Below the pieces are notes generated by a model, which was given only the letters and a program-made list of their open reading frames with translations, did not search any database and was not told the origin of the DNA. Position numbers and translations under genes: made by a program. This document shows positions 43,896-57,272 of a stretch of DNA of 64,000 nt, one piece after another; the stretch's first letter is position 1; the number at the start of each line of letters is the position of its first letter. The stretch is from Tropicimonas sp. IMCC34043 (GTDB taxonomy: Bacteria; Pseudomonadota; Alphaproteobacteria; Rhodobacterales; Rhodobacteraceae), in assembly GCF_003390845.1 (NCBI RefSeq), contig NZ_QMEK01000003.1, positions 248,001 through 312,000 on the forward strand, read 5' to 3'.

Positions 43896-44547
43896 CCGGC
43901 GCCCCGATACCCGCCGGGCCGGCTGTCGTGCCGGCCGGCATACCGGCTACAACCGCCTGACGCTGCCCTACCGCAAGGGGCAGCGCTCGGATCGCGGTCG
44001 CTCACAGTCGCGCCCACTCCGCTCGACGACGGCCTGAAACAGGCGCGTCGCGCCAAGCCCCGAGTCGATTGGCAGCGGGACGGCGAAGTCTGTGCATCGC
44101 CGCAGATCGTGGATTTCAAGGTCCGTCACACGGCCAATGAACCGGGCGATTGCTTCAAGGCTGCTCTCAGCCCCGGCCGCGTCGTTCGCGGAAAATCCAA
44201 CGCGGTGTGGCACCAACAGACCGAGCGCGAAATGGGCCGGTCGGCGGTGGTGATGCAAATGGGACCGTTGGGGTTCACCCCCTCGGGCAGGGCCTCCTCG
44301 TCCCCCTCGGCGCGCCTCTGGCGCAACGCCGAAGGGCACCTCGCCGCCACAGAGTTACCACCGAGCATCGACAGGGGGACTCAAGGGGGCTGGGCAAAAT
44401 GCCCAGCCTGGCTAATGGATTAATAAAGCGTCTTTTTCTGGAAGCTATGGTGCCCCGCGTGTTCCACGGCCTGGCAGGTCCATTGTTGTGACACGGCCCT
44501 TGTTCCTGCTTGAATTCTCGCCAAGTTGCCCGGTACTCATTCTGCCG
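43896..44547. other. 652-base gap between DIT1 operon and cas3; hairpins, no clear gene
   Basis: A 7-base GC hairpin (GGCCGGC/GCCGGCC) at 43917-43936 just after the DIT1-like stop may end that operon, but lacks a U tract. Open frames on both strands in 43968-44423 have no recognisable family. A second strong hairpin, GGCTGGGCA/TGCCCAGCC with an AAA loop, lies at 44388-44408. The following AT-rich GGCTAATGGATTAATAAAGC may hold the cas3 promoter; I cannot assign its boxes. A GTG at 44488 in the cas3 frame would extend Cas3 by 20 residues. Confidence 0.4.
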
Positions 44548-47022
44548 ATGGAGAAAACAATATCTCGTTGGCCGGGCAAGAGTGTGCCGCCGGAAGGCGG
44601 TCCTGAGCATCCGGCGATCTATCACATGCTCGATGTCGCTGCGGTCGCCGAACGACTGATCGGTCCGTTCGGATGGGATGCGGCGTTGCAGGACGCGCTG
44701 GTCCTGCTGGCCGCTCTGCACGATCTGGGCAAGATCGGCGAAGGTTTTCGGGCAATGTTGCGCGAAGGGAAGGCGCAGCCCGCAGGTCTTCACTGGGAAG
44801 TTACCGAAGCCCTGTTGCGCCATCACGATACGCTGATCGCCGAGAGGCTCGGATCGACGGAGCGCTATCGGCTGAGGCTTTATGCGGCCACGGCCGGGCA
44901 TCACGGTCGCCCGCCAACGCGCGATGTGGTTCAGTTGCGCCGGTCCCTGGACAGCGCGGGGCAGGAGGCGCTGGCCGACAGCGCCAGGACAATCGAGGCG
45001 TTCCTTGCCCTCTGGCCGAAGGCATCCCTCGACGGGCTCGACCGCGAAGGCGCGCTTGCGCTGAGTTGGTGGCTTCCTGGTCTGGTCTCCGCCGCCGATT
45101 GGGTCGGCTCCAATTCGGCGTGGTTTCCGCCCTGTGATCCGACTGTCCCGATCGCGGCCTATCTGGAACGCGCCCGGGACAAGGCGGGCATGGCGGTCGA
45201 ATTGGCGGGTCTGACTGTCCCTGCGCCGAGCGGCGGAAAGCTGTTCGACTTCGACCTGCGCCCGATGCAGGCGGCCTGTGCGGAGGTGCCATTGCCCGAT
45301 GGCCCCATGCTGGCGGTCATCGAGGATGAAACCGGCGTCGGCAAGACCGAGGCCGCGCTGATCCTGGCGCAGCGGATGATGGCCGCGGGCAAGGGACGGG
45401 GGCTGTTCTTTGCCCTGCCCACCATGGCTACGGCAAATGCGATGTTTGCCCGCGCGCAAGAGGTCGTGTCGCGCATGTTCGCGGGGCCGCACAGCCTGGT
45501 GCTGGCACATGGCAGGGCACGCCTGTCCGGGCCGTTCCGCACGCTCGTGGCACGGCAGAGCGCGGGCACCGACGAACCGGTCTGTACCGAATGGCTTGCC
45601 GATAACCGCCGTCGGGCGCTGCTGGCCAATGTCGGGGTGGGGACGGTGGATCAGGCGTTGCTCTCGATCCTGCCGACCAAATTCTCGACATTGCGCCACT
45701 TCGGCCTGTCCTCGAAGATTCTGATCGTCGACGAGGTGCATGAACTGGGCGAGCCCTACATGGCGGCCGAGCTGGCGCAGCTTTTGCGGGCGCATCGCAT
45801 GGCCGGCGGTTCGGCGATCCTGCTGACGGCGACCTTGCCGATGGCGCAACGCAAGACGCTGCTTGCGGCCTACGATCACGCCGACAGCGGGGACGCGGCC
45901 TATCCGGCGCTGACGCTGAGCCATGGGCAGGTGCGGCGGGAGTTTCCACAACAAACAGGCGCGCGTGGGCAGGTATCGGTCCACCGCCTTCCGGATCCCG
46001 AGGCCGCCGTTGCCTTGCTGGCCGAACGGGCGGGGCAGGGGGCGGCCTGCCTTTGGGTGCGCAATGCCGTGGACGATGCAATTGCCGGGGTCGAGGCGCT
46101 GCGGGCCGCGGGGGTCGAGGCCGATCTGCTGCACGCCCGCTTTGCGCTCTGCGACCGGCTGCGGCACGAAACGGCGGCGCTGGAGCGCTTCGGCAAGGCG
46201 CGGGAGCCGCGTCCGGGGCGGGTGCTGGTGGCAACGCAGGTGGTGGAATCCTCGCTGGATCTCGATTTCGACGTGATGGTCTCCGATCTCGCGCCGATGG
46301 CCGCACTGATCCAGCGCGCCGGCCGGCTCTGGCGGCATATGGACCGGCGTCCGGCGGCGATGCGGGCGGTGCCAGCGCCGCTGCTGCATGTCGTGTCGCC
46401 GGACCCCGACAGCGTGGAGGACGACCAGTGGCTGCACCGGGTGCTGGACCGGGGCGCCTGGGTCTATCCGCTCGACCTGCAATGGCGCACGGCGCGGGTG
46501 CTGTTCGGGATCGGGCGGATCGAGGCGCCATCGGGGCTGCGCGCGCTGATCGAGGCGGTGCATGGCGCTGATGCCGAGCCGGTGCCCGGCCTGCTGGAAA
46601 CGGCAGAGACGGAACGGATCGGCAAGGGGTACTCGGCGGCCAACCAGGCGTGGCGCAATGTGGTGGTGCTGGAGGACGGATACCGAATGGGCGGCGCCGG
46701 GGCCGAGGACACGAAATACCCGACCCGGCTGGGCAGGCCGCAGAAGACGCTGCTGCTCGCCCGGTGGCAGGCGGGGCGGCTTGTGCCCCACGCCGGGACC
46801 GAGGCCGGGGACATGGAGGATGCCTGGCAGCTTTCCGAAGTGCAGGCCGCCGAACACCGGCTTCAGGGGCTGGACCTGCCGGATCAGGCGGCGCCCGAGG
46901 TGGCCGCGATGACGGCAGGCTGGCCGGAGTGGCGGCGGGCGGCGGTGCATGTCTGCCCGATGGCGCCGGACGGGGAGATTTGCACGGGGCTGCGCTACGA
47001 TCCCGAGAGGGGGCTGTTGTAA
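44548..47022 (+). CDS. cas3: Cas3 helicase-nuclease, type I-E
   Basis: 824 aa. Cas3 is recruited by target-bound Cascade and nicks, unwinds and degrades DNA. HD nuclease: H26 in YHMLDVAAVA, H58-D59 and K62 in LHDLGK, and further His in AGHHGRPP. Helicase: Walker A ETGVGKT with K266, DEVH at 395-398, LTATLP (motif III), QVVESSLDLDFD and QRAGRLWRH (motif VI). All catalytic residues I can check are present. ATG 44548 gives the I-E N terminus with WPGKS near residue 8; GTG 44488 is an alternative. A long antisense open frame here is only a GC-rich shadow. Confidence 0.95.
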   Translation: MEKTISRWPGKSVPPEGGPEHPAIYHMLDVAAVAERLIGPFGWDAALQDALVLLAALHDLGKIGEGFRAMLREGKAQPAGLHWEVTEALLRHHDTLIAERLGSTERYRLRLYAATAGHHGRPPTRDVVQLRRSLDSAGQEALADSARTIEAFLALWPKASLDGLDREGALALSWWLPGLVSAADWVGSNSAWFPPCDPTVPIAAYLERARDKAGMAVELAGLTVPAPSGGKLFDFDLRPMQAACAEVPLPDGPMLAVIEDETGVGKTEAALILAQRMMAAGKGRGLFFALPTMATANAMFARAQEVVSRMFAGPHSLVLAHGRARLSGPFRTLVARQSAGTDEPVCTEWLADNRRRALLANVGVGTVDQALLSILPTKFSTLRHFGLSSKILIVDEVHELGEPYMAAELAQLLRAHRMAGGSAILLTATLPMAQRKTLLAAYDHADSGDAAYPALTLSHGQVRREFPQQTGARGQVSVHRLPDPEAAVALLAERAGQGAACLWVRNAVDDAIAGVEALRAAGVEADLLHARFALCDRLRHETAALERFGKAREPRPGRVLVATQVVESSLDLDFDVMVSDLAPMAALIQRAGRLWRHMDRRPAAMRAVPAPLLHVVSPDPDSVEDDQWLHRVLDRGAWVYPLDLQWRTARVLFGIGRIEAPSGLRALIEAVHGADAEPVPGLLETAETERIGKGYSAANQAWRNVVVLEDGYRMGGAGAEDTKYPTRLGRPQKTLLLARWQAGRLVPHAGTEAGDMEDAWQLSEVQAAEHRLQGLDLPDQAAPEVAAMTAGWPEWRRAAVHVCPMAPDGEICTGLRYDPERGLL

Positions 47023-47057: not shown

Positions 47058-47140
47058 TTGTTTCCCGCGCCTGTGGGGATGGCCCGTGCTTTGTGGAAAG
47101 GGTTGCGAAAGACTGTTCCCCGCCAAGCGGGGATGATTAA
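47058..47140 (+). ncRNA. Degenerate mini-CRISPR between cas3 and cse1 (CreR/CreA-like guide RNA candidate)
   Basis: Two repeat-like units flank a short spacer. Unit 1 (47058-47086) matches the array repeat at 21 of 29 positions and keeps the 6-base stem through G-T wobbles. Unit 2 (47113-47140) begins CTGTTCCCCGC and has GCGGGGATGA as in the true repeat, with a 3-base loop instead of 4. The spacer (47087-47112, starting TGCTTTGTGGAAAG) is 26 bases, against 32 in the array. Cas6e could plausibly cut both units. The spacer start matches a site directly downstream with an AAG PAM. Known CreR/CreA RNAs have this repeat-spacer-repeat form and redirect Cascade to repress promoters in cas loci. Expression is inferred, not shown; its promoter is unclear and it may be co-transcribed with cas3. 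Confidence 0.7.
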
Positions 47141-47173
47141 GTGCTTGGTGGAAAGAGATGCGTAGTATCTCTT
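47139..47173 (+). promoter_or_regulatory. Predicted Cascade target with AAG PAM for the mini-CRISPR spacer
   Basis: AAG at 47139-47141 is followed by TGCTTGGTGGAAAG (47142-47155). It equals the mini-CRISPR spacer start at 13 of 14 positions; the single difference is position 6, which is flipped out and not read in type I-E guides. Beyond position 14 the match becomes patchy. Seed-only matching with a good PAM is what a repression site, as opposed to a cleavage target, should look like. A tandem duplication of the roughly 55-base unit would also create this similarity. Confidence 0.6.
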
Positions 47174-47186
47174 TCCACCTTTTTAT
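47148..47186 (+). terminator. Intrinsic terminator after the mini-CRISPR
   Basis: A perfect 12-base stem, GTGGAAAGAGAT (47148-47159) with ATCTCTTTCCAC (47167-47178), has a 7-base loop GCGTAGT and is followed by CTTTTTAT. It would end transcripts that come from cas3 or from the mini-CRISPR, so cse1 and the genes after it need their own promoter downstream. Confidence 0.85.
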
Positions 47187-47214
47187 AGACAGGCCTTGGC
47201 GCTGATGTTATCAA
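47186..47214 (+). promoter_or_regulatory. Candidate promoter for the mini-ORF and cse1 operon
   Basis: TAGACA at 47186-47191 (5 of 6 to TTGACA), a 17-base spacer and TATCAA at 47209-47214 (4 of 6 to TATAAT) lie directly after the terminator. The predicted Cascade site ends about 13 bases upstream, close enough to interfere with polymerase binding. The match is modest. Confidence 0.4.
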
Positions 47215-47218
47215 ATGA

Positions 47219-47252
47219 AAGCAGCGGACTCGGTTTCCCGAATCCGCTGCTT
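47219..47252. repeat. Stable hairpin in the cas3-cse1 intergenic RNA
   Basis: AAGCAGCGGA pairs with TCCGCTGCTT, and an inner TCGG pairs with CCGA around a TTTC loop. If transcription starts near 47221 this would form the 5' end of the RNA. No U tract follows, so it is not an obvious terminator on the plus strand. Confidence 0.55.
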
Positions 47253-47311
47253 GAAAGTACAAAGTTTAACGCAGCCGTTGGCGCGGCTTCATATGAGCGG
47301 AGGTTAAGAAG

Positions 47312-47332
47312 ATGCAGACCTTAAGAGTCTGA
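47312..47332 (+). CDS. Six-codon mini-ORF with strong ribosome binding site and rare codons (CreT-like candidate)
   Basis: ATG CAG ACC TTA AGA GTC TGA encodes MQTLRV. GGAGG at 47299-47303 lies 8 bases upstream, stronger than most sites in the window. It contains consecutive TTA and AGA, both codons that are scarce in the surrounding high-GC genes. Known CreT toxin RNAs are tiny ORFs with a strong site and rare Arg codons that trap a scarce tRNA. A regulatory leader peptide for cse1 is the other possibility. Confidence 0.4.
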   Translation: MQTLRV

Positions 47333-47339
47333 TCCTTGT

Positions 47340-47373
47340 CGCGCCCAGATTCATTTATGCGGAACTGGGCGCG
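47340..47373 (+). promoter_or_regulatory. Hairpin in the cse1 5' leader
   Basis: CGCGCCCAG (47340-47348) pairs with CTGGGCGCG (47365-47373), with a 16-base loop, beginning 7 bases after the mini-ORF stop and 38 bases before the cse1 start. Translation of the mini-ORF could influence its folding. No U tract follows. Confidence 0.45.
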
Positions 47374-47411
47374 CAAGGCAATAGAGCTAAATTTGCAAAA
47401 GGATATTGCCG

Positions 47412-48886
47412 GTGCCCCTTAATCTCATTTCCGATCCTTGGATTCCCGTCCTCACACGCGATGGCCACCGGCGCATTATCGCGCCTTGGGAAATCGCCGA
47501 CCCGGATCTTTTGCGTCCGGACTGGCCGCGCGCCGATCTCAACCTCGCCTGTCTTGAACTGCTGATCGGGTTGGTCTTTCTCGCCGACCCGCCGGCCCAT
47601 GACGAGGACTGGGAGGACCGGCAGGCGCCCGATCCTGCACGCCTGCGCGCCCGGCTGTCGCCGCTGGCGCCGGCCTTCGAGCTGACCGGCGAGGGGCCAC
47701 GCTTCCTGCAGGATCTGGCGCCGCTCGAGGGCGCGCCCAACCCGCCCGATATGCTGTTCATCGACAGCGCCGGCGGCAATACGGCGAAAAACAATGCCGA
47801 CCTGATGGTGCGCCGCGGCCGATACCCGGTGCTCGACCCGGCGATGGCGGCGATGGCGCTTTATACCTTCCAGGCCTTCGCACCGTCTGGCGGAGCCGGC
47901 AACCGCACTTCGATGCGGGGTGGCGGGCCGCTGGTGACCCTCGTGGCCCCGCAACAGGCGCTTTGGCCGATCGTCTGGGCGAACGTTCCCTACGGCCGGC
48001 CGGCCGGCACCGAGACCCTGCCCTGGATGCGCGCCACGGTGACCTCCGAAAAGGGCCAGCAGGTCTTTCCCGAACAAAGCCACCCGGCGGAGGCGTTCTT
48101 TGGTATGCCGCGCCGGCTGCGACTGGTGGAGACGGCGGGCGCGATCACCGGTGTGATCCAGCGGCCCTATGGCACCAATTATGCGGGCTGGGACCACCCG
48201 CTTTCGCCCTACTACCGGCAGAAGGTGACCGACGAGTGGCTGCCGCGTCACCCCCGGCCCGGGCTTTTCGGCTACCGCCACTGGCTGGGCATCGTCGCCG
48301 CGCTGCCGAACGAGGCAGAGGGCTTACGGCGGCGGGCCGGAATGGTGCGCGAGTGGGAAAATCGCCAGTCGAAGCTGCAGGTGCGGCTGATCGTCGGCGG
48401 CTGGGCGATGGACAACATGAAGCCCAGGGATTTCATCCTGTCCACGCCGCCATTCGTTGCCCTCGATGGCGAGGCGACGCTGATCCTGTCAGGGCTGGTC
48501 GAGGCCGCGGACCGCTTGTCGCTGGCGCTGCGCGGCGCGTTGAAGCCGGTGCTTGCCGAGGGCGAGGAGCGCGAGGCCGTTCGGGAGGCGTTTTATGCCG
48601 ACACCCAGGCACCGTTCGAGGCCCGCGTGGTGCAGTTGCAGAAGGGCGTGGCGGCGAGCGATGTCGCGCGGGGCTGGCTCGACGACATGCGGCAGGTCGC
48701 CATTCCCATTTTCGAGGGCCGAGCCCTGCCAGGGCTCGCCGACCGTGACCCAAAGGTGCAGCAGCAGATCGTTCAGGCCCATCGCGGGTTGCTTGCCGCC
48801 TTCGCCGGGCACGGGAAGGTGGGGGGCGACGCCTTTGAGGCGCTGCGCCTTACGCCGGCGCCGAAGCAGAAGGAGGAGGTTGCGGA

Positions 48887-48890
<4 letters not shown>
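47412..48890 (+). CDS. cse1: Cse1 (CasA/Cas8e), large subunit of type I-E Cascade
   Basis: 492 aa. Cse1 recognises the PAM and recruits Cas3. N terminus NLISDPWIPVLTRDG is the family hallmark, and the zinc-finger-free middle contains GGRYP-like VRRGRYPVLDPAMAAMALYTFQ, followed by SMRGGGPLVTLV and a C-terminal four-helix bundle. Start GTG 47412 was preferred to TTG 47406 because AAAGGA at 47398-47403 is then 8 bases away. It overlaps cse2 by 4 bases. It is separated from cas3 by the 389-base regulatory region described here. Confidence 0.93.
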
Positions 48891-52264
<3,374 letters not shown>

Positions 52265-52330: not shown

Positions 52331-52603
52331 CTGTTCCCCGCACGCGCGGGGATGAACCGAATGACCGCCTTCGCAGAAATCATGTCCGGTCCTGTTCCCC
52401 GCACGCGCGGGGATGAACCGAGGATCAGAGAGCTATGGCAAACTTCTACGTCCTGTTCCCCGCACGCGCGGGGATGAACCGTATTGGGAGCCGGCGGGCG
52501 ATATCTACCCCGACTGTTCCCCGCACGCGCGGGGATGAACCGTTCGGACATGAGCGCTTCAGGAAGGTGAAAACCTGTTCCCCGCACGCGCGGGGATGAA
52601 CCG
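52331..52603 (+). CRISPR. Type I-E CRISPR array, 5 repeats and 4 spacers
   Basis: Five identical 29-base repeats start at 52331, 52392, 52453, 52514 and 52575, a 61-base period with four 32-base spacers. Each repeat opens CTGTTCCCCGC, has a 6-base stem CCCCGC/GCGGGG around ACGC, and ends in the I-E handle ATGAACCG, so transcription is rightward. Spacers occupy 52360-52391, 52421-52452, 52482-52513 and 52543-52574. I noticed no match of a spacer elsewhere in the window. The last repeat is not degenerate, unlike most trailer ends, which suggests the array was trimmed. Confidence 0.98.
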
Positions 52604-57185: not shown

Positions 57186-57272
57186 TGGTGCGGACGACGG
57201 GACTTGAACCCGTACTTCACTGAGGAAAAGAGATTTTAAGTCTCTCGCGTCTACCGATTTCGCCACGTCCGC
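57186..57272 (-). tRNA. tRNA-Leu (anticodon UAA)
   Basis: 87 bases including an encoded CCA. The acceptor arm GCGGACG at the 5' end pairs with CGTCCGC before A-CCA. The anticodon arm AGAGA-CTTAAAA-TCTCT holds TAA. A long variable arm (class II) and the T-loop GGTTCAAGT complete the structure. Decodes TTA (and TTG by wobble), the rare leucine codon that also occurs in the mini-ORF at 47312. Confidence 0.97.

Follow-up and report, generated by a model that had tools for sequence, protein, structure and literature searches.

In the 64,000 nt stretch of Tropicimonas sp. IMCC34043 DNA analysed here (the window), a six-codon open reading frame (ORF), called below the mini-ORF, lies in the gap between cas3 and cse1, the first Cascade operon gene of a type I-E CRISPR locus. 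The genome is of the Rhodobacterales type (4.6 Mb assembly). Region 47058-47378 is probably a type I-E CreTA toxin-antitoxin RNA pair, a reading to which a probability of about 0.66 is assigned from sequence comparisons. The guide RNA CreA would be the antitoxin, and CreT, a minigene carrying rare codons, the toxin. The parts follow each other, 5' to 3', in the order psi-repeat 1, guide, psi-repeat 2 with AAG at its end, partial guide copy, terminator, promoter-like boxes, 5' hairpin, small hairpin, GGAGG, mini-ORF, stem-loop and cse1 (Table 1).

The mini-ORF had been singled out in an earlier note on this DNA, and was described exactly. GGAGG (47299-47303), the 8 nt that follow (TTAAGAAG) and ATG...TGA (47312-47332) are all as reported, and the ORF is placed, as claimed, between the predicted Cascade target (47142-47167) and cse1 (from 47412). 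The hairpin noticed downstream is present too, with limits corrected from 47340-47373 to 47334-47378. The pattern GGAGG-N4-9-ATG-2 to 6 codons-stop occurs once in the window, both strands included, and the single occurrence is the mini-ORF site. Dinucleotide shuffling of the 195-nt region produces this pattern in 0.28% of cases, or in 0.06% when the match must include a rare codon as well. TTA and AGA, the fourth and fifth codons, had been called scarce, and codon counts over 190 predicted genes of the same genome (74,023 codons, about 0.28 Mb) bear this out: TTA is the rarest of the 61 codons (0.22 per 1000), AGA the third rarest (1.26 per 1000), and adjacent TTA-AGA is found once among 73,833 codon pairs. 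The tRNAs reading TTA and AGA, Leu(UAA) and Arg(UCU), are encoded by one gene each in the genome. The only tRNA-Leu(UAA) gene is located in the window (57186-57272, minus strand), 10 kb from the mini-ORF whose TTA codon that tRNA reads.

Related loci have been collected by a Cse1 scan, which gave 80 loci, to which plasmid and whole-genome loci were added. The cas3-cse1 gap is short (<=150 nt) in many; in others it spans 250-580 nt and the parts are ordered as in the window. Twenty further type I-E loci, most of them from Rhodobacterales, combine guide, protospacer adjacent motif (PAM), partly complementary target, promoter, strong ribosome site, mini-ORF and 3' stem-loop. This recurrence of the whole module gives strong comparative support to the CreTA interpretation already proposed in the earlier note. 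The ATG and the ribosome site, whose loss in relatives had been named beforehand as speaking against a toxin, are both kept in nearly all loci. Twenty mini-ORFs, that of the window included, were gathered by reading the gaps, mostly by eye, and the choice of the start codon is a possible source of bias. One further mini-ORF, L192, came from a search of 295 genomes with the ribosome-site pattern GGAGGTTNNGAAGATG alone; it sits behind a cas3 gene, and has its own guide and AAG target.

The encoded peptides (MQTLRV, MRILIA, MGPI, MGPL, MGQL, MGLI, MRAT, MTIRI, MTT, MAP, and a group fitting xxKIP) are dissimilar, and at least one of the codons ATA, TTA, CTA, AGA and AGG is found in 15 of the 20 mini-ORFs. 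These five codons make up 22 of the 91 inner codons; within-ORF shuffles yield 8.3 (none of 5000 reaches 22), and in the genes of the window genome they amount to 0.7%. The enrichment is confined to the reading frame, the other two frames giving 5/71 and 0/71. Codon 4 is rare (ATA, TTA or AGG) in 15 of 19 mini-ORFs (within-ORF order permutation, P < 1e-4; an in-frame TTG was taken as start in L040), and in 8 of 10 if the KIP group is counted once (P = 0.0008). The closest module, L022, shares TTA at codon 4 with the window; its fifth codon is ATA, against AGA in the window. Because of the frame control, the L192 find and the codon-4 bias, a chance origin of the pattern looks unlikely. That the mini-ORF itself is a chance ORF inside a CRISPR-derived leader, an idea suited by its length of just 6 codons, is very improbable, and is disfavoured by the comparative data: such a site has P ~0.003 in the region, it is seen in 20 other loci, and it was independently found again by pattern.

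Some copies have decayed or changed. The three lacking a rare codon are L039, in which guide and target are kept, the start codon reads CGG and ATA has become ATG; L091, in which ATA is replaced by ACA and no early stop is present; and L075, in which ATA is replaced by ATG. The start codon is gone in L039 alone. In L074 and L076 the 5' hairpin is kept and the mini-ORF is absent. No cas-linked mini-ORF devoid of guide and target was seen among the collected loci (the guide-target pair of L090, spaced beyond the limit of the scan, was read by eye). The asymmetry, guides without mini-ORF being found and the converse not, is consistent with what a putative toxin-antitoxin pair predicts, the numbers being small. 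A covariance model of the upstream region, run on 295 genomes of the family, matched strongly its own members only (E 1e-12 to 2.5e-8); weaker matches (E 0.004-0.1 per genome) do not exceed what chance would give, and the model, which missed L192, is too insensitive to prove absence elsewhere. On the Cse1 tree the module has a scattered distribution (18 changes), which supports no claim of a single origin or of horizontal transfer.

Three observations on the wider set of loci are worth recording. In L194 (G149:C1:427504, reverse strand, ribosome site at about 1501) a creT-like minigene, AAGGAGGTTACGAAG ATG GGA CGA ATA TAG, is followed by a hairpin; no cas gene was seen within the 3 kb examined, mobile-element genes are nearby, and the minigene may be a chance sequence, a leader, or a creT departed from CRISPR. 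The Paracoccus versutus plasmid pTAV1 (L111, 5600-6000) hosts a complete set of Cascade genes with two ectopic repeats upstream of casA; cas3, cas1 and cas2 are all missing from the stretch examined, and no convincing target was found near the repeats. In L077 and L081, outside Rhodobacterales, the guide and target copies upstream of cse1 are themselves inverted repeats (GGCTCG..CGAGC; GCGTCTTGACGC).

As in CreTA modules, a crRNA (CRISPR RNA)-like guide gene with two degenerate repeats (psiR1 and psiR2, 47058-47141) adjoins the cas genes, and an AAG-flanked target with partial, seed-type complementarity is found at the predicted toxin promoter. Guide and target match at 10 of 10 seed positions in the window, with mismatches at positions 6, 15, 17 and 22, and a scan of the whole genome found PAM plus seed match at the window target only. 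Guides with the type I-E handle, and targets whose PAM is mostly AAG, have been identified in 25 distinct loci, which remain from a raw list of 30 matches once duplicates and chance-level matches are removed; L043, L051 and L058 were discarded as chance-level. Mismatches in the raw 30 accumulate at guide positions 6 (22), 12 (19) and 18 (19), and number 0-2 each at positions 2-5, 7 and 11. In the 20 other module loci, guide positions 1-5 and 7-11 agree with the target, and position 6 usually does not. Pairing of the 5+1 type is the pattern by which Cascade reads DNA, as established for type I effectors. Because the mismatches follow this pattern, they are strong evidence that the predicted guide-target pairs are functional across loci. 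The notion that the locus is a decayed CRISPR relic devoid of function draws on the degenerate repeats and on the broken cas1-cas2 of this genome; it is the least credible of the alternatives, as the seed matches its target completely next to a PAM, and mismatches cluster where Cascade does not read.

The target starts <=13 nt from the GGGG of psi-repeat 2 in 20 of the 25 loci (within about 11 nt in 19), the lag from guide to target has a median of 59 nt, close to the array period of 61, and psi-repeat 2 typically ends in relatives with GGGGATAAG, in place of GGGGATGAACCG. Since the target directly follows psi-repeat 2, at a lag resembling the array period, and the end of psi-repeat 2 is altered to a PAM, the simplest inference is that the target is a relic second spacer: a repeat-spacer unit would have been duplicated, the end of the second repeat turned into a PAM, and the spacer copy become the target.

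Table 1. Features of the cas3-cse1 gap and of the flanking CRISPR locus (window coordinates)
Feature	Position	Strand	Basis or remark
cas3, intact	44488-47022	+	
psi-repeat 1 of creA guide gene	47058-47086	+	15/21 + 6/8 matches to array repeat CTGTTCCCCGCACGCGCGGGGATGAACCG
5' handle ATGGCCCG, last 8 nt of psi-repeat 1	47079-47086	+	
guide (psi-spacer), 26 nt, TGCTTTGTGGAAAGGGTTGCGAAAGA	47087-47112	+	partial copy 55 nt downstream beside AAG
psi-repeat 2, repeat-like in its 5' part, 3' end ..ATGAACCG replaced by ..ATGATTAAG	47113-47141	+	sequence; same change in most relatives
PAM AAG, 3' end of psi-repeat 2	47139-47141	+	
predicted Cascade-CreA target (protospacer) TGCTTGGTGGAAAGAGATGCG...	47142-47167	+	match to guide and PAM
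intrinsic terminator, 15-pair stem and TTTTT, overlapping the target	47147-47184	+	z = -7.1
predicted promoter TAGACA - 17 nt - TATCAA	47186-47214	+	recognised by eye, at the same register as the TTGAC boxes in relatives
5' hairpin close to predicted CreT RNA start	47219-47252	+	5' region z = -3.6
small hairpin AGCCGU-UGGC-GCGGCU, 5' of ribosome site	47273-47288	+	covariation
Shine-Dalgarno GGAGG	47299-47303	+	
creT mini-ORF ATG CAG ACC TTA AGA GTC TGA (MQTLRV), rare codons 4 and 5	47312-47332	+	
stem-loop immediately 3' of mini-ORF, without U-run	47334-47378	+	z = -5.0
cse1/casA (cas8e), GTG start, first Cascade operon gene	47412-48890	+	
cse2, cas7, cas5, cas6e, complete set	48887-51834	+	
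broken cas1 start joined to cas2 remnant	51831-52264	+	translation; 14% of cas1 covered
CRISPR array, 5 repeats, 61-nt period	52331-52603	+	

Hairpins 5' and 3' of the mini-ORF are stable in most loci. A translation start predicted to be efficient, minor codons and a stem-loop further 3' give the window element the sequence features of the tRNA-sequestering class of CreTA toxins. The small hairpin covaries in an alignment of 16 sequences: double changes affect 3 of 5 pairs, 12 cells are changed on both sides vs 3.8 in shuffles, and pairing reaches 89.9%, vs 25-56% when the structure is slid. A scan of the gap against Rfam gave no match at the gathering score, and one sub-threshold match attributable to chance. 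No terminator is found in the window between the mini-ORF stop and cse1, and the space is too small for another promoter. A terminator separates mini-ORF and cse1 in five other loci; since it follows the mini-ORF, creT can there be an independent short transcript.

A plausible course of events is as follows. CreA would be cut by Cas6e out of the 3' part of the cas3 transcript, which probably ends at the terminator overlapping the target. Cascade-CreA bound at the target, just 5' of the promoter, would block transcription, cleavage by Cas3 being avoided through the limited pairing and the short 26-nt guide. Upon loss of Cascade the leader RNA would be made and the minigene heavily translated; ribosomes would meet the rare Leu-TTA and then Arg-AGA, and either tRNA-Leu(UAA) and tRNA-Arg(UCU), both scarce, would be tied up or peptidyl-tRNA would drop off, resulting in growth arrest. 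The sequestration or drop-off step is drawn from PMC8501985 and from general knowledge of minigenes. If all this holds, a cell losing its CRISPR machinery would probably poison itself via the unsilenced minigene.

It had been proposed that the pair preserves the interference genes after loss of cas1-cas2. The loss is real, an internal deletion having fused the start of cas1, out of frame, to what remains of cas2, and the interference genes are intact as claimed, cas3 and all Cascade genes being present. Preservation by the toxin pair is consistent with these data, and the addiction idea fits because toxin repression in Citrobacter rodentium needed Cascade genes only (PMC12055562). Across loci no association was found between the module and cas1-cas2 loss: both genes are kept in almost all other module-bearing loci whose contigs extend there.

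CreR are RNAs that regulate cas genes in types I-B, I-E and V-A. The main rival to the CreTA pair, unlikely though to be taken seriously, is a guide of the CreR kind only: the guide would autorepress the Cascade promoter, and the mini-ORF would be a non-toxic leader ORF tuning cse1, either by attenuation or by translational coupling via the 3' stem-loop. CreR has already been described for type I-E, as cited in PMC13131331. No second promoter is evident for cse1 in the window, nor is the gene preceded by a terminator, and some relatives, L029 among them, carry guide, PAM and target just upstream of cse1 but lack a mini-ORF. Arrangements of this sort are seen in L029 (PAM ATG), in L116 and L117 (AAG), and possibly in L109. 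On the other hand, a leader role does not predict a rare codon at a fixed position in otherwise dissimilar ORFs, nor the terminators found past the mini-ORF in five loci, though these may be read as attenuators. A classical attenuator is unlikely in the window because the stem-loop lacks a U-run, and autorepression does not need a mini-ORF, as the CreR-like relatives lack it.

Several points weigh against a rare-codon CreTA toxin. GGCAATA (47377-47383) can pair with TATTGCC (47404-47410) so that the cse1 ribosome site is enclosed, in L022 as well as in the window, and this pairing, together with a 5-pair palindrome inside the ORF, could indicate a leader function; in 14 of 20 creT loci GGCAA comes after the 3' stem-loop. 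The promoter TAGACA/TATCAA is weak relative to the consensus. A strict sigma-70 scan of the gap found no promoter, and the call relies on the register with relatives; it begins 44 nt past the target start, vs 17-40 nt in most relatives. The type I-E CreT ORF of C. rodentium is 96 bp long and lacks rare codons (PMC12055562). Finally, 5 of the 20 mini-ORFs (MTT, MAP, MGQL, MIKMPS, MRKTPV...) have no very rare codon, and rare codons therefore cannot be the whole rule. These last mini-ORFs, and the hairpins that flank nearly all mini-ORFs, would also suit a CreT whose toxicity comes from the RNA itself or from trapped ribosomes and not from a shortage of tRNA, a mode proposed for Acinetobacter type I-F CreT; the precedent is an RNA toxin requiring start codon and hairpin (PMC10097628). 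Such a toxin is less probable still than the leader, being at odds with the in-frame enrichment of rare codons and with the codon-4 bias.

The CreTA and the leader-peptide readings may both be true in this window, as the Cascade mRNA probably has creT in its leader. The predicted promoter at 47186 would drive both creT and Cascade, since a strong terminator lies upstream and neither a terminator nor room for a promoter precedes cse1. A single Cascade-CreA binding event would thus act as antitoxin and as Cascade autorepressor. Extended to all loci, the CreTA reading outlines a bacterial type I-E family for which the case is evenly poised. In it the target is a relic second spacer, arisen through the PAM change in psi-repeat 2; the toxin is a minigene of 3-6 codons, with a rare codon fixed at position 4 and drifting in identity (ATA, TTA, AGG); and in compact loci the toxin resides in the Cascade leader, the guide being both antitoxin and cas autorepressor. 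Such a family would offer a positional rule open to mutational testing, loss mutants that arose in nature, and a plausible path from a CRISPR array to a toxin-antitoxin module.

The bar minigenes of phage lambda are very short translated ORFs with a rare AUA codon, toxic through peptidyl-tRNA drop-off; they resemble the mini-ORF, but reside at phage sites and are under no CRISPR control. CreR RNAs share with the window a crRNA-like guide that is complementary to a cas promoter to a limited extent, and the repressed window promoter probably drives Cascade too; in CreR no toxin is involved, whereas here the promoter is followed by a conserved rare-codon mini-ORF. The open literature searched, which excluded the original CreTA and CreR papers, yielded no description of CreTA from Rhodobacterales; the original Science 2021 CreTA paper reportedly predicted several bacterial modules. 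The window and its relatives appear to be a bacterial CreTA variant, new as far as the searched literature shows. CreT toxins are poorly conserved and known from few systems, and those with rare-codon mini-ORFs have, as far as that literature tells, been shown in haloarchaea only. About 20 alphaproteobacterial loci, mostly of Rhodobacterales and including culturable Paracoccus, Rhodovulum, Rhodobacter and Haematobacter, would provide a tractable bacterial model.

Among described systems, the CreTA of C. rodentium is likewise of type I-E, located in the cas3-casA gap and endowed with a PAM-flanked target beside the promoter; it requires Cascade genes and not cas1, cas2 or cas3, and differs in having CreA on the opposite strand (PMC12055562). 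Acinetobacter CreTA similarly features a guide-controlled mini-ORF with a Shine-Dalgarno sequence in a cas3-adjacent gap, but is of type I-F, divergently oriented, and has a 33-bp ORF thought to act as RNA on ribosomal RNA (PMC10097628). The haloarchaeal modules of Haloarcula hispanica and Halobacterium hubeiense belong to archaeal type I-B, and their sequences and promoters are different. In H. hubeiense a single operon comprises creT and creA, and the target is at the promoter of this operon, whereas in the window creA lies upstream and the target follows the second repeat. Shared features are a creA with two psi-repeats (H. hubeiense), a PAM-flanked target paired at positions 1-5 and 7-11, a mini-ORF with two consecutive rare codons, and a stem-loop after it. 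Haloarcula CreT carries AGA-AGA and that of H. hubeiense AUA-AUA (PMC8501985), the latter, on one reading of the same source, at codons 4-5, which are also the positions of the rare pair in the window.
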